Below, in pieces: positions 15,209-20,783 of a stretch of 61,318 nt of DNA. How positions within the stretch are numbered: the first letter of the stretch is position 1; each line of letters begins with the position of its first letter. Both the position numbers and the translations under genes were made by a program. The DNA comes from Hydrogenothermus marinus (GTDB lineage: Bacteria; Aquificota; Aquificia; Aquificales; Hydrogenothermaceae): the NCBI RefSeq assembly GCF_003688665.1, contig NZ_REFO01000015.1, forward strand, positions 1 through 61,318. Reading direction: 5' to 3'. The notes under the pieces were generated by a model. That model saw only the letters and a list, made by a program, of their open reading frames with translations, had not been told where the DNA came from and did no database searches.

Positions 15209-16618
15209 TTGTGGTTTTTTAGATTGGATAGAGATTTAATAATTTTAACATCTACAAATTTAATTATTTATATAATAAGAGAAAATAACGAAAATGTTGA
15301 ATTATATGTAGAAAATAAGGATGAACTTCAAAATGTAGGTGGAGTTTATAAAGGTAGAATTAAAAGATTAGCACCTGCAATGAATGCAGTCTTTGTTGAT
15401 ATAGGAAATGATAGAGAAGCCTTTTTACATGTAAAAGATATAAATAATTATAAATTAAATCAACCTATACTTGTTCAAGTTAAAAGGGGACAAATAGGAA
15501 ATAAAGGTGCAAAATTAACTGAAAAAATAGCTATTCCAGGTAAATATTTAGTTTTAACCCCAACAGTAAAAACAGTAAATATCTCCTCTAAATATACAGA
15601 TGAAAATCAAAAGGCTGTTTTAAAAGATAGAGTTAAAGATATTTTATCTGAATATAATCCAGAAAATTATGGCTATATTATAAGAACACTAACTTGTGAA
15701 GCATCAGATGAAGATATAATAGAGGATTTTTTAAATTTAAAATCAATATGGGAAAATATATTAAAAAGATTTGATAAAGTTAAAGCCCCTTCTCAGTTAT
15801 TCTTAGAAGACTATAAACTTTATACTATATTGAAAGATTATGCAGGTAAATTTAATAATATAATCACTGATGATATTAAGCTTTATAAGATCTTAAGAAA
15901 ATATACTAAAAACTTTTTTGGAAACATAGATATAAAGATAAAGCTTTTTAAAGAAAACAATAAAAGTCTTTATGAATATTATGAGATACCAAAAACTATT
16001 CATAAGATATTAAATCCTTATGTATGGTTAAAAAGTGGTGGTTATCTGGTAATTGAAGAAACTGAAGCCCTTGTTTCTATAGATGTAAATAGTGGTAGTA
16101 GTTGTAAAAGTAAAAATCTAGAAGAAACTGCTTTTGCTACAAATGTAGAAAGTTGTAAAGAAATAGCAAAACATTTAAGACTTAGAGATTTAGGAGGAAT
16201 AATAATTATAGATTTTATAGATATGAATGAAGATAGTAAAAAAGAAGAACTTATAAATATCTTAAAACAAGAAACTTTTTTTGATAAAAAGCCAATAAAA
16301 ATAAGAGGATTTACAAGTTTAGGATTATTAGAACTTACAAGAAAAAAAATAGACGAAAGTAATATAAAAAAATTATCCCAATTTTGTTATATTTGTAATG
16401 GAAAAGGTTATACAAAAAGTATTAATTTAGTATTATTTGATATAGAAAAGAAAATCCAATGTATAAAACCATTTGCAAAATTACAGATAAAAATTAATCC
16501 TTTACTTGAAAAAGGGTTAAAATTAATACTAAAAAATTTAGATATTTCTAAAAATGTTAAAATTATAAAAGATGAAAGATTATCTGTAGATAAATATATA
16601 ATAGAGAGAAAAGCATGA
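15209..16618 (+). CDS. rng: Ribonuclease G/E family endoribonuclease
   Basis: Endoribonuclease involved in rRNA and mRNA processing. The 469-residue protein has an S1 domain interrupting the N-terminal region (GVYKGRIKRLAPAMNAVFVDIG, roughly residues 45-67). The RNase H-like catalytic half has the metal-binding aspartates in IDVNSGS and IIDFIDM, and the zinc-link cysteines are in CYICNGKGY (near 395-403). It is about the length of RNase G and lacks the RNase E scaffold tail. The start is probably a TTG: 15209 or 15224 are both possible and neither has a strong ribosome binding site. It overlaps the following lipoprotein gene by four bases. Confidence 0.92.
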   Translation: MWFFRLDRDLIILTSTNLIIYIIRENNENVELYVENKDELQNVGGVYKGRIKRLAPAMNAVFVDIGNDREAFLHVKDINNYKLNQPILVQVKRGQIGNKGAKLTEKIAIPGKYLVLTPTVKTVNISSKYTDENQKAVLKDRVKDILSEYNPENYGYIIRTLTCEASDEDIIEDFLNLKSIWENILKRFDKVKAPSQLFLEDYKLYTILKDYAGKFNNIITDDIKLYKILRKYTKNFFGNIDIKIKLFKENNKSLYEYYEIPKTIHKILNPYVWLKSGGYLVIEETEALVSIDVNSGSSCKSKNLEETAFATNVESCKEIAKHLRLRDLGGIIIIDFIDMNEDSKKEELINILKQETFFDKKPIKIRGFTSLGLLELTRKKIDESNIKKLSQFCYICNGKGYTKSINLVLFDIEKKIQCIKPFAKLQIKINPLLEKGLKLILKNLDISKNVKIIKDERLSVDKYIIERKA

Positions 16619-17496
16619 AAAAATTATTAATAGTAGCTTTAGTATTTAGTTTATTTTTATCCTGTGCTAAAAAAGAGTTTTATCCAAAGGATATATACTA
16701 TCAAGGTATGAAAGCTTATAAAGAAAAAAAATATGATAAAGCAAAAGATTATCTAAAAAAAGCCATATACAAAGCAAAAGGTATGACAACTGAAGATATA
16801 ATGAATGCTAAATTTGCCCTTGCAAATATATATTTCCATCAAAAACAGTATGTAGATGCAATTGTAGAGTTTGAAGAATATATATCTATGTATCCTACTG
16901 CACCAAATATACCAGAAGCTCTTTATAAATTGGCTATTTCTTACTTAAAAGTTTCACCAGATTATCAAAGGGACCTTACATATGTAAGAAAAGCAGAAGA
17001 AAAAGCAAAAGAGATAATAATAAATTACCCTAATAGTAAATATGTAGAAAAAGCAAAAGAAATAATAAAGAAAGTTAAACAAATAGAGATTAAACATTAT
17101 AAAGATATAGCAGATTTATATGAGCATCTTGGGAAACCTTACTCAGCTTATTTTTATTACAACTTTATTTACAACAAATATTACAACTATATTGATAAAG
17201 ATTATATAAAGTATAAAATGGGAATAAATCTCTTAAAGACACAACAGCAGTATGAAGATACTATAGAAGACTATAAAGAAAAACTAAAAGAGTTAGAAGA
17301 AAAAATAAAGAAAGAGAAAAATTTAGATAAAAAGAATGTTTTACAAAATAGAAAAAAACTTTTAGAAGAGCAATTATATACATACGAAAAAAGAATCAAA
17401 GAAAGTAAAATAAAAGGTAAAGAAATATTAAAAGAACTTGCTAAAAAAGGGAAATATAAAAAAGAGATTGAAAATATCTTGAAAAAATATAATTAA
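16615..17496 (+). CDS. Outer membrane assembly lipoprotein, BamD-like TPR protein
   Basis: Lipoprotein of 293 residues with a type II signal peptide. The lipobox LFLSC puts the acylated cysteine at residue 17. Two or more tetratricopeptide repeats follow (for example YYQGMKAYKEKKYDKAKDYL and an ANIYFHQKQYVDAIVEFEEY-type repeat, about 30-130). Then come helices and a lysine/glutamate-rich coiled coil from about 200 to 270. BamD (YfiO) proteins dock to BamA and insert outer-membrane barrels; the TPR pattern and lipobox match. The long coiled-coil tail is an addition. Four-base overlap with rng suggests translational coupling. Confidence 0.82.
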   Translation: MKKLLIVALVFSLFLSCAKKEFYPKDIYYQGMKAYKEKKYDKAKDYLKKAIYKAKGMTTEDIMNAKFALANIYFHQKQYVDAIVEFEEYISMYPTAPNIPEALYKLAISYLKVSPDYQRDLTYVRKAEEKAKEIIINYPNSKYVEKAKEIIKKVKQIEIKHYKDIADLYEHLGKPYSAYFYYNFIYNKYYNYIDKDYIKYKMGINLLKTQQQYEDTIEDYKEKLKELEEKIKKEKNLDKKNVLQNRKKLLEEQLYTYEKRIKESKIKGKEILKELAKKGKYKKEIENILKKYN

Positions 17497-17531
17497 TACA
17501 TATATATAAAAGAAAAAAGGAGGTTTCACCT

Positions 17532-17885
17532 ATTAAAACAGAAAAAACTGTAAAAAAAATAGTAGAAGCAATAGAAGATAAAAAAGGTAAAGATACAGTT
17601 GTCTTAAATATTGGTAAAGTAAACCCAATAGCAGATTATATGATAATTACCTCAGGAGATGTTCCAACCCATACCAGAGCTATTGCAGATGAAATAATGA
17701 AAACTCTAAAAGAAGAAGGCTTAACCCACTCTCATGTAGAAGGTTATACAGAAGGAAGATGGATAGCTATAGATTATGGAGATATTATGGTGCATATATT
17801 TTTACCTGAACTTAGAGATTATTATCAACTTGAATGGCTTTGGCAAGATGCACCAAAACTTGAATTAAAAACAGCAGAAGGCTAA
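17532..17885 (+). CDS. rsfS: Ribosomal silencing factor RsfS, apparent ATT start
   Basis: Binds L14 on the 50S subunit and blocks 30S joining during starvation. The conserved core GKVNPIADYMIITSG and the later EGYTEGRWIAIDYGDIMVHIF are clear. From the first ATG (17640) the protein would lack its first helix. Upstream the frame stays open, with no ATG, GTG or TTG, to an ATT at 17532 that sits eight bases after a perfect AGGAGG (17518-17523). Starting there gives 117 residues, the family's usual length, and restores the helix VKKIVEAIEDKK. ATT starts are known for infC. The gene lies three bases before murI. Confidence 0.88.
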   Translation: MKTEKTVKKIVEAIEDKKGKDTVVLNIGKVNPIADYMIITSGDVPTHTRAIADEIMKTLKEEGLTHSHVEGYTEGRWIAIDYGDIMVHIFLPELRDYYQLEWLWQDAPKLELKTAEG

Positions 17886-17888
17886 TAT

Positions 17889-18671
17889 ATGTCTATTGGA
17901 GTTTTTGATTCTGGTATAGGTGGTCTTACTGTTTTTAAATCTATTTCAGAAAATTTTCCAGAAGCTAACATTTACTATATAGGTGATACTGCAAGAGTTC
18001 CTTATGGAAATAAATCAGCAGAAACAATAATAAGATATAGTCTTGAGCTTTCAAATTTTTTAATAAAAAACTTTAATGTTGATCTTCTTGTTATTGCTTG
18101 TAATTCTGCATCTTCTTATGCTTTTGAAACAGTAAAAAAATATACAAATATTCCTGTAATAGATGTAATTACGGCTGGAGTTTTAAATGCTATTTCTAAA
18201 ACAAAGAATAAAAAAATAGGAGTAATAGGTACTCAAGCTACCATAAGAAGTAAATCTTATGAAAAAAAAATAAAGGATATAGGAAAAGATTATCAAGTTT
18301 TCTCAAAAGCTTGTCCTTTATTTGTACCTCTTGTAGAAGAAGGAAGAATAAAAGGAAATATTACAAGACTTATAATAAAAGACTACTTAGACGATATTGT
18401 TAATGAAGGAATAGATACATTAATACTTGGTTGTACCCATTATCCTTTATTAAAGGATGAAATTAAAAATTTGTATCCTGATTTAAACATTGTCGATTCT
18501 ACAGATATAATTCCTCAATTTATTAAAAATCAAAATATTAATCTAAAAGAAAATGGAGAGAGAAGAATATTTATTACAGATGAATCTCCATCTTTTTATG
18601 TTCTAAAAGATTTATTAATACCGGATTTAGACATAGAAAAAGTTGAACTATCTGAAATATGTACACTATAG
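17889..18671 (+). CDS. murI: Glutamate racemase
   Basis: Makes D-glutamate for peptidoglycan. It is 260 residues with both catalytic cysteines: VIACNSASS (near 72) and LILGCTHYPLL (near 183). The opening IGVFDSGIGGLTVF and DTARVPYGNKS loops bind substrate. Length is normal. It begins three bases after rsfS. Other peptidoglycan genes in the window (murD, pgeF, rodA) are far away. The downstream gap of about 90 bases carries a likely promoter for the ATP synthase genes. Confidence 0.97.
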   Translation: MSIGVFDSGIGGLTVFKSISENFPEANIYYIGDTARVPYGNKSAETIIRYSLELSNFLIKNFNVDLLVIACNSASSYAFETVKKYTNIPVIDVITAGVLNAISKTKNKKIGVIGTQATIRSKSYEKKIKDIGKDYQVFSKACPLFVPLVEEGRIKGNITRLIIKDYLDDIVNEGIDTLILGCTHYPLLKDEIKNLYPDLNIVDSTDIIPQFIKNQNINLKENGERRIFITDESPSFYVLKDLLIPDLDIEKVELSEICTL

Positions 18672-20298: not shown

Positions 20299-20439
20299 AT
20301 GGCTGAAAAAATACATAATAATTTATCAAACAAAAAAAGAAAAAGAACTTCAGGTTTTTTAGCAAGAAAAAGAACTAAATCAGGAAGAAAAATACTTGCA
20401 AGAAGAAGAAGAAAAGGTAGAAAAAGATTGGCAGTTTAA
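20299..20439 (+). CDS. rpmH: Ribosomal protein L34 (bL34)
   Basis: A 46-residue, arginine/lysine-rich ribosomal protein. The sequence contains SGFLARKRTKSGRKILARR and ends GRKRLAV, matching bL34 over its whole conserved part. The first ten residues (MAEKIHNNLS) replace the usual MKRTYQPS and look divergent. The ATG follows AAGGAGGT. It heads the conserved rpmH-rnpA-yidD-yidC-mnmE cluster, which lies near oriC in many bacteria. No dnaA gene is next to it here. Its last 13 bases overlap the proposed start of rnpA. Confidence 0.95.
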   Translation: MAEKIHNNLSNKKRKRTSGFLARKRTKSGRKILARRRRKGRKRLAV

Positions 20440-20783
20440 TTACAATAAAGAAATCTAAAGAGATAAAAGATATTTTAAAAACAGGAATAAGTTTTAAAGG
20501 AATTTATTTTATAGCATTAATAAAAAAGAATAATCTTAATTATCCAAGATTTGCATTTGTTGTATCTAAAAAATTTTCTAAAAAAGCTGTAGAAAGAAAT
20601 AGAGTAAAAAGGATATTAAGGGAAGCATTAAGATTAGTTCTTCCAAAAATGAAAAATTTTAGTTATGATATAGTTTTAGTACCAAAAAAAAATCTGTTAA
20701 AAAAGAAAATGTCTGATTTAAATAAAGATATAAAAGCTTTGATAGAGTTTTTAAGAGAGTTAAATGAAAAAAATTTTAATTAA
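20427..20783 (+). CDS. rnpA: Ribonuclease P protein component, non-canonical (ATT) start
   Basis: Protein cofactor of RNase P, which trims tRNA 5' ends. The reading frame 20421-20783 encodes the whole family: [19 protein letters not shown] then [11 protein letters not shown], the RNR signature helix, and a lysine-rich C-terminal helix. There is no ATG, GTG or TTG before the conserved core. The frame is closed upstream by TAG at 20418, so initiation must use ATT at 20427 or 20439. The 20427 start has AAAAGG nine bases before it and gives 118 residues, a normal length. It overlaps rpmH by 13 bases and yidD by 20. The first internal ATG (20650) would remove most of the protein. Confidence 0.88.

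Follow-up and report, generated by a model that had tools for sequence, protein, structure and literature searches.

We found that rsfS of Hydrogenothermus marinus starts, with near certainty, at an ATT codon behind a strong Shine-Dalgarno (SD) sequence, at position 17532 of the window, by which we mean the whole stretch of 61,318 nucleotides analysed. Start codons of the same weak class, AUH (ATT, ATC or ATA), are conserved at this place in Hydrogenothermaceae and recur in other phyla, and the weak start is specific to rsfS and infC, as judged against one control gene. In E. coli, the AUU start of infC is rejected by IF3 on the 30S subunit, by which means IF3 throttles its own gene. RsfS guards the 50S subunit and IF3 the 30S subunit against subunit joining. 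We consider it probable that, through a selected, IF3-discriminated AUU start, rsfS is controlled in the way that infC is.

The rsfS start in the window

The features of the window referred to below are as follows.

16615..17496, plus strand: upstream gene, ending 35 bases before the rsfS start; from its sequence we take it to be lipoprotein-like
17518..17523, plus strand: Shine-Dalgarno AGGAGG, lying in an 8-base SD match AAGGAGGT at 17517-17524
17532..17534, plus strand: rsfS start codon ATT, 8 bases past AGGAGG, standing where solved RsfS chains have their residue 1
17532..17885, plus strand: rsfS coding sequence, 117 codons and stop
17640..17642, plus strand: internal ATG, first canonical codon of the rsfS frame, rejected as start
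17889..18671, plus strand: downstream gene with an ATG start, presumably murI-like from its sequence
20439..20783, plus strand: rnpA read from an ATT that shares bases with the rpmH stop and has no SD, which leaves the start uncertain

The sequence-only reading had placed the rsfS start at ATT 17532, behind a perfect AGGAGG and in a frame without a standard start codon, and direct reading of the sequence bore out both points. Positions 17517-17534 of the plus strand read AAGGAGGTTTCACCTATT, and the start region itself, AAAAAGGAGGTTTCACCTATTAAAACA, consists of AGGAGG, an 8-base gap and ATT. The frame opens at 17493 and stays open as far as its stop codon at 17883-17885; an NTG start further upstream was considered and rejected, the first ATG, GTG or TTG of the frame being the ATG at 17640. 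The pairing of SD and ATT goes beyond what chance would give: across the window, 23 ORF ends showed an SD match of at least 6 bases before a start-like codon, the match before ATT 17532 measuring 8 bases. At nine other ORF ends the only SD-preceded codons were non-NTG, and all nine lay inside longer ORFs having an upstream NTG.

The protein read from ATT 17532 matches PF02410 over positions 1-98 of 98 (profile search, E 1.6e-33), with the match starting at base 17553. It also aligns gap-free and in register with two solved RsfS chains, residues 6-113 on 6-113 of 2o5a and residues 2-109 on 2-109 of 9q40, and because this register holds from the first residues, ATT 17532 corresponds to residue 1. 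From its N-terminus on, the window protein is in register with the RsfS/MALSU1 family (PF02410), which it also resembles in sequence and length, the start codon of its gene being the sole difference. RsfS of other species is described as binding uL14 and blocking subunit joining (PMC9503621).

A start at ATG 17640, which would give a shortened protein, is hardly credible. This ATG is the first canonical codon in frame, but starting there would cost 29 of the 98 PF02410 positions as well as the gap-free match to solved RsfS from the first residues, and no SD precedes it on direct reading. The stretch upstream of it also evolves as coding sequence does: in the Persephonella group, single-base codon differences between the start and the internal ATG are mostly synonymous (1049 vs 263, pairwise counts), indicating that the stretch is translated.

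Weak starts of rsfS and infC in Hydrogenothermaceae

A PF02410 search detected rsfS in 39 of 41 Hydrogenothermaceae genomes, at 40 loci (one genome with two), all of which were read. Relatives keep the weak start, a check that the sequence-only reading had proposed: 27 of the 40 loci carry ATA (16), ATC (7) or ATT (4) behind an SD, and the codon aligns with the ATG of ATG-started members. For this count we required an SD match of at least 4 bases and the start column, -17, plus one locus at -20 (L005, which has a 3-codon insertion); the matches observed ranged from 6 to 10 bases, with a median of 7. There was no ATG, GTG or TTG between the upstream stop and the conserved Lys18 in 24 of the 27, and an NTG lay further up the open frame in one. 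The other 13 loci appear to start with ATG, at the homologous column in 11 and further up in 2, and no GTG or TTG start occurred among the 40.

These data bear on two alternative accounts of the window. With the H. marinus genome in 18 contigs, a sequencing or assembly error might have destroyed a normal rsfS start, an outcome that the sequence-only reading had named as refuting its claim; however, the 27 AUH-started loci come from separate assemblies, including near-complete ones of 2-5 contigs (G015, G016, G018 and G028), which refutes such an error and leaves it a practically negligible chance. It is also very unlikely that the codon is unselected, with ribosomes leaving the upstream gene and re-initiating at any codon past an SD while codon identity drifts. 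Such coupling would suit the 17 of these loci in which a same-frame stop precedes the start by no more than 4 codons, but the upstream gene in the window ends 35 bases away, and drift should give GTG, TTG and other codons, whereas the loci show ATT, ATC, ATA or ATG alone, with ATA invariant in one genus.

Indirect evidence suggests that the weak rsfS start codon is selectively kept across Hydrogenothermaceae, its third base being free to vary between T, C and A. In the Persephonella group the start is ATA at 14 of 14 loci; of the 35 codons up to the internal ATG, 33 vary at the third position and 8 at the second, and five other Ile codons common to all 14 loci each occur as two or three synonyms (ATA, ATT, ATC). 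Within the family, three changes between AUH and ATG, and six changes of the exact codon in all, were needed on a quick tree from RsfS, IF3 and RnpA pieces (three short proteins, outgroups by RsfS only, deep forks open). SD matches were longer before AUH than before NTG starts (Mann-Whitney p 0.003 in the family, 0.001 in Omnitrophota and 0.03 in Planctomycetota; in all three comparisons the rows are related and p is no more than a guide). RNA structure was rejected as a control element: the leader in the window folded somewhat better than its shuffled versions (z of -2.9), but the mean z was 0.07 over 26 family leaders, among which no common structure was found.

Among 85 loci of other Aquificota families, rsfS starts with ATG in Aquificaceae (56, assigned by eye on the sequence listing) and in f3/f4 (8), and with TTG behind an SD in 21 of 21 Desulfurobacteriaceae loci. 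Off the start column the automatic AUH verdict was too permissive, flagging 9 Aquificaceae and 3 f3 loci through chance SD matches. Automatic calls not at column -17 (L306, L310, L376, L338, L343, L378, L212 and L280) were likewise rejected, as was L273, which has ATA at this column and its SD match elsewhere. Two draft genomes each held a pair of rsfS matches (L014 and L041 in G027; L195 and L199 in G054, where one of the pair contains an in-frame TAG), most likely because the bin mixes strains. In a same-genus draft genome (G005), rsfS (L006) is divergent, starts with ATG and sits on a long branch, and may be misbinned.

The sequence-only reading had likened the rsfS start to that of infC, and infC of the same genome (L031, G000 contig C13, about 13.2 kb) indeed starts with ATT, behind GGAGG. 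We found infC in 36 of the 41 family genomes, with ATT in 33 and ATC in 3; its leader, GGAGGTAAATTAGCCATT, is nearly identical across the family, and it remains AUU or AUC in family genomes without an AUH-started rsfS. As a control we read smpB in genomes whose rsfS is or may be AUH-started (44 genomes, 39 with smpB, best 30 loci read). HMM-anchored reading located a canonical start codon within the open frame of every one of these 30, in two of them (L411 and L424) off its usual place.

A second ATT-started gene had been proposed in rnpA. At 20434-20447 of the window there is no canonical start past the in-frame stop, and ATT 20439 does overlap the rpmH stop, as TAATT, but the parallel is weak: it has no SD, and ATT is confined to the window's own genus (4 of 5 loci read). 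Most family genera start rnpA with ATG, and several, with Persephonella and g4 loci among them, have TAATG at the rpmH/rnpA junction in place of TAATT. Since smpB is canonical, rnpA mostly ATG-started and infC AUU- or AUC-started, the weak start is a property of rsfS and infC, not a general one of these genomes.

Recurrence in other phyla

In a scan of named genomes (best 80 loci), ATA stood at the homologous rsfS place in Omnitrophica and 'Nitrospirae' records. We sampled the phyla of three such records and found rsfS in 51 of 58 Omnitrophota, 8 of 8 Nitrospirae-type and 58 of 59 Planctomycetota genomes. Loci read numbered 51, 8 and 57, respectively, leaving out from the Planctomycetota sample G234 (match cut by the contig end) and one of two G226 fragments. 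AUH with an SD match of at least 4 bases occupied the start column in 16 of 51 Omnitrophota, 6 of 8 Nitrospirae-type and 10 of 57 Planctomycetota loci. When these phyla were pooled with the family (156 loci), the start column held 49 AUH codons with an SD match of at least 5 bases, and each of the 18 further columns tested held 2 at most.

An NTG further up the open frame was present in 2 of the 6 Nitrospirae-type, 5 of the 16 Omnitrophota and 6 of the 10 Planctomycetota AUH loci, which makes the Omnitrophota and Planctomycetota calls less secure; one Omnitrophota locus, L293, is better read as starting with ATG. Under a strict criterion (no NTG from the upstream stop to Lys18), 24 of 27 family loci were retained, along with 2 of 6 Nitrospirae-type, 5 of 16 Omnitrophota and 2 of 10 Planctomycetota loci. 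Other start codons at this column in Omnitrophota were mostly TTG (15) and GTG (9). In Planctomycetota, 14 of the 57 rows had neither an NTG near the start nor an SD-backed AUH, and 14 more were unclear. At two Planctomycetota loci (L328 and L333) and one Brocadiaceae locus (L271), TTA directly follows ACG at the homologous rsfS start, behind AGGAGG, GGAGG or GAGGT; a TTA or ACG start there would be another non-canonical codon.

Elsewhere, TTG and ATG prevail. Setting aside the 17 named loci whose titles indicate Aquificota, Omnitrophota, Planctomycetota, the PVC group or Nitrospirae left 63 of the 80, from other phyla, and in none of these did AUH stand at -17 behind an SD match of at least 5 bases; E. 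coli K-12 rsfS (L200) starts with TTG. TTG starts of rsfS are strikingly common, occurring in all Desulfurobacteriaceae loci, in Selenomonadales loci among L218-L274 and in E. coli K-12, a hint that low RsfS output may be widely wanted.

Proposed control by IF3 and known systems

The features that rsfS shares with infC are an AUH codon at the homologous N-terminus (ATT in the window and AUH in 27 of the 40 loci of the family), a strong SD before the weak codon (a match of 8 bases in the window and a median of 7 over the 27 loci) and, indirectly, a codon kept weak (ATA fixed in 14 of 14 Persephonella-group loci, three changes to or from ATG). In the mechanism that we propose, the strong SD would recruit the ribosome to the weak AUU codon of rsfS, and as AUH belongs to a class of codons that are discriminated against by IF3 on the 30S subunit, rsfS would be subject to IF3 discrimination like infC. 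When free 30S exceeds IF3, the infC and rsfS starts would both be read better and IF3 and RsfS would rise together; when IF3 is ample, synthesis of both would fall. Sharing the codon class and the strong SD, rsfS would be expected to follow the infC signal, a surplus of free 30S over IF3, and a role of this coupling in starvation, which the sequence-only reading had raised, is conceivable. Such control would be dispensable, as 13 of the 40 family loci show no AUH start.

More broadly, the anti-association factors of the two subunits might form a small regulon run by IF3, in which both IF3 and RsfS are set, via one start-codon checkpoint, by how much IF3 there is relative to free 30S. Such wiring would be maintained in Hydrogenothermaceae and found again in Omnitrophota, Planctomycetota and the Nitrospirae-type phylum; this wider idea is tentative, and we lean slightly against it. 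In E. coli lacking RimM, IF3 and RsfS both rise and occupy their subunits together (PMC13246957). It follows that such a joint rise is physiologically meaningful, and also that coupling of IF3 and RsfS can arise without an AUH start, since E. coli rsfS starts with TTG.

The main rival to IF3 control is that the weak start merely limits dose, keeping RsfS scarce relative to its operon neighbours since too much of it would block subunit joining, with swings in IF3 too small to matter. This would explain the conservation without any regulation. TTG is a weak but IF3-tolerated start, and its use in 21 of 21 Desulfurobacteriaceae loci, many Firmicutes and E. coli K-12 suggests that low output is generally wanted. 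In S. aureus, expression from the AUA start of ccpN and the AUU start of cvfC1 in poor medium is about 10% of that from AUG (PMC13009471). However, GTG, TTG or a weaker SD would serve to limit dose, and yet in the family a strong SD accompanies the weakest kind of start, and GTG and TTG are absent; we regard dose limitation by itself as unlikely, and prefer control by IF3.

To our knowledge, very few genes keep a start codon other than ATG, GTG or TTG from one species to the next. The addition of rsfS to the AUH-started genes is unexpected and may tie both anti-association factors to one checkpoint: by repeatedly joining infC, rsfS would link the two subunit-separating factors, which offers a simple explanation, open to test, for a joint setting of their levels. 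RsfS is likely mis-annotated, with a trimmed N-terminus, in these lineages, and gene finders limited to ATG, GTG and TTG would hide AUH wiring by such trimming. Aquificales have been re-annotated with ATT starts allowed (PMC4227106). We found no paper on a non-canonical rsfS start in the open-access literature, and the supplementary lists of PMC4227106 may record an extended rsfS.

Among known systems, infC is the closest: like rsfS, it has an AUH start behind an SD, kept in distantly related bacteria, and its product is a subunit anti-association factor. It is self-regulated, whereas rsfS would be cross-regulated by IF3 and has an AUH start in certain lineages only. Binns and Masters reportedly described, in 2002, an AUU start of E. 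coli pcnB, like rsfS a second chromosomal gene limited by AUU, although of unrelated function; we know of no recurrence of the pcnB start across phyla. Experiments have shown that IF3 represses the GTC start of Streptomyces sigR (PMC5472188). As we propose for rsfS, IF3 repression here acts on a non-canonical start outside infC; sigR differs in its GTC codon, in encoding a sigma factor and in being translationally coupled to the anti-sigma factor. Finally, S. aureus ccpN and cvfC1 (PMC13009471) share with rsfS a conserved AUH start and an extended SD, the low output being theirs; they differ in encoding a metabolic regulator and a small protein, not ribosome factors.
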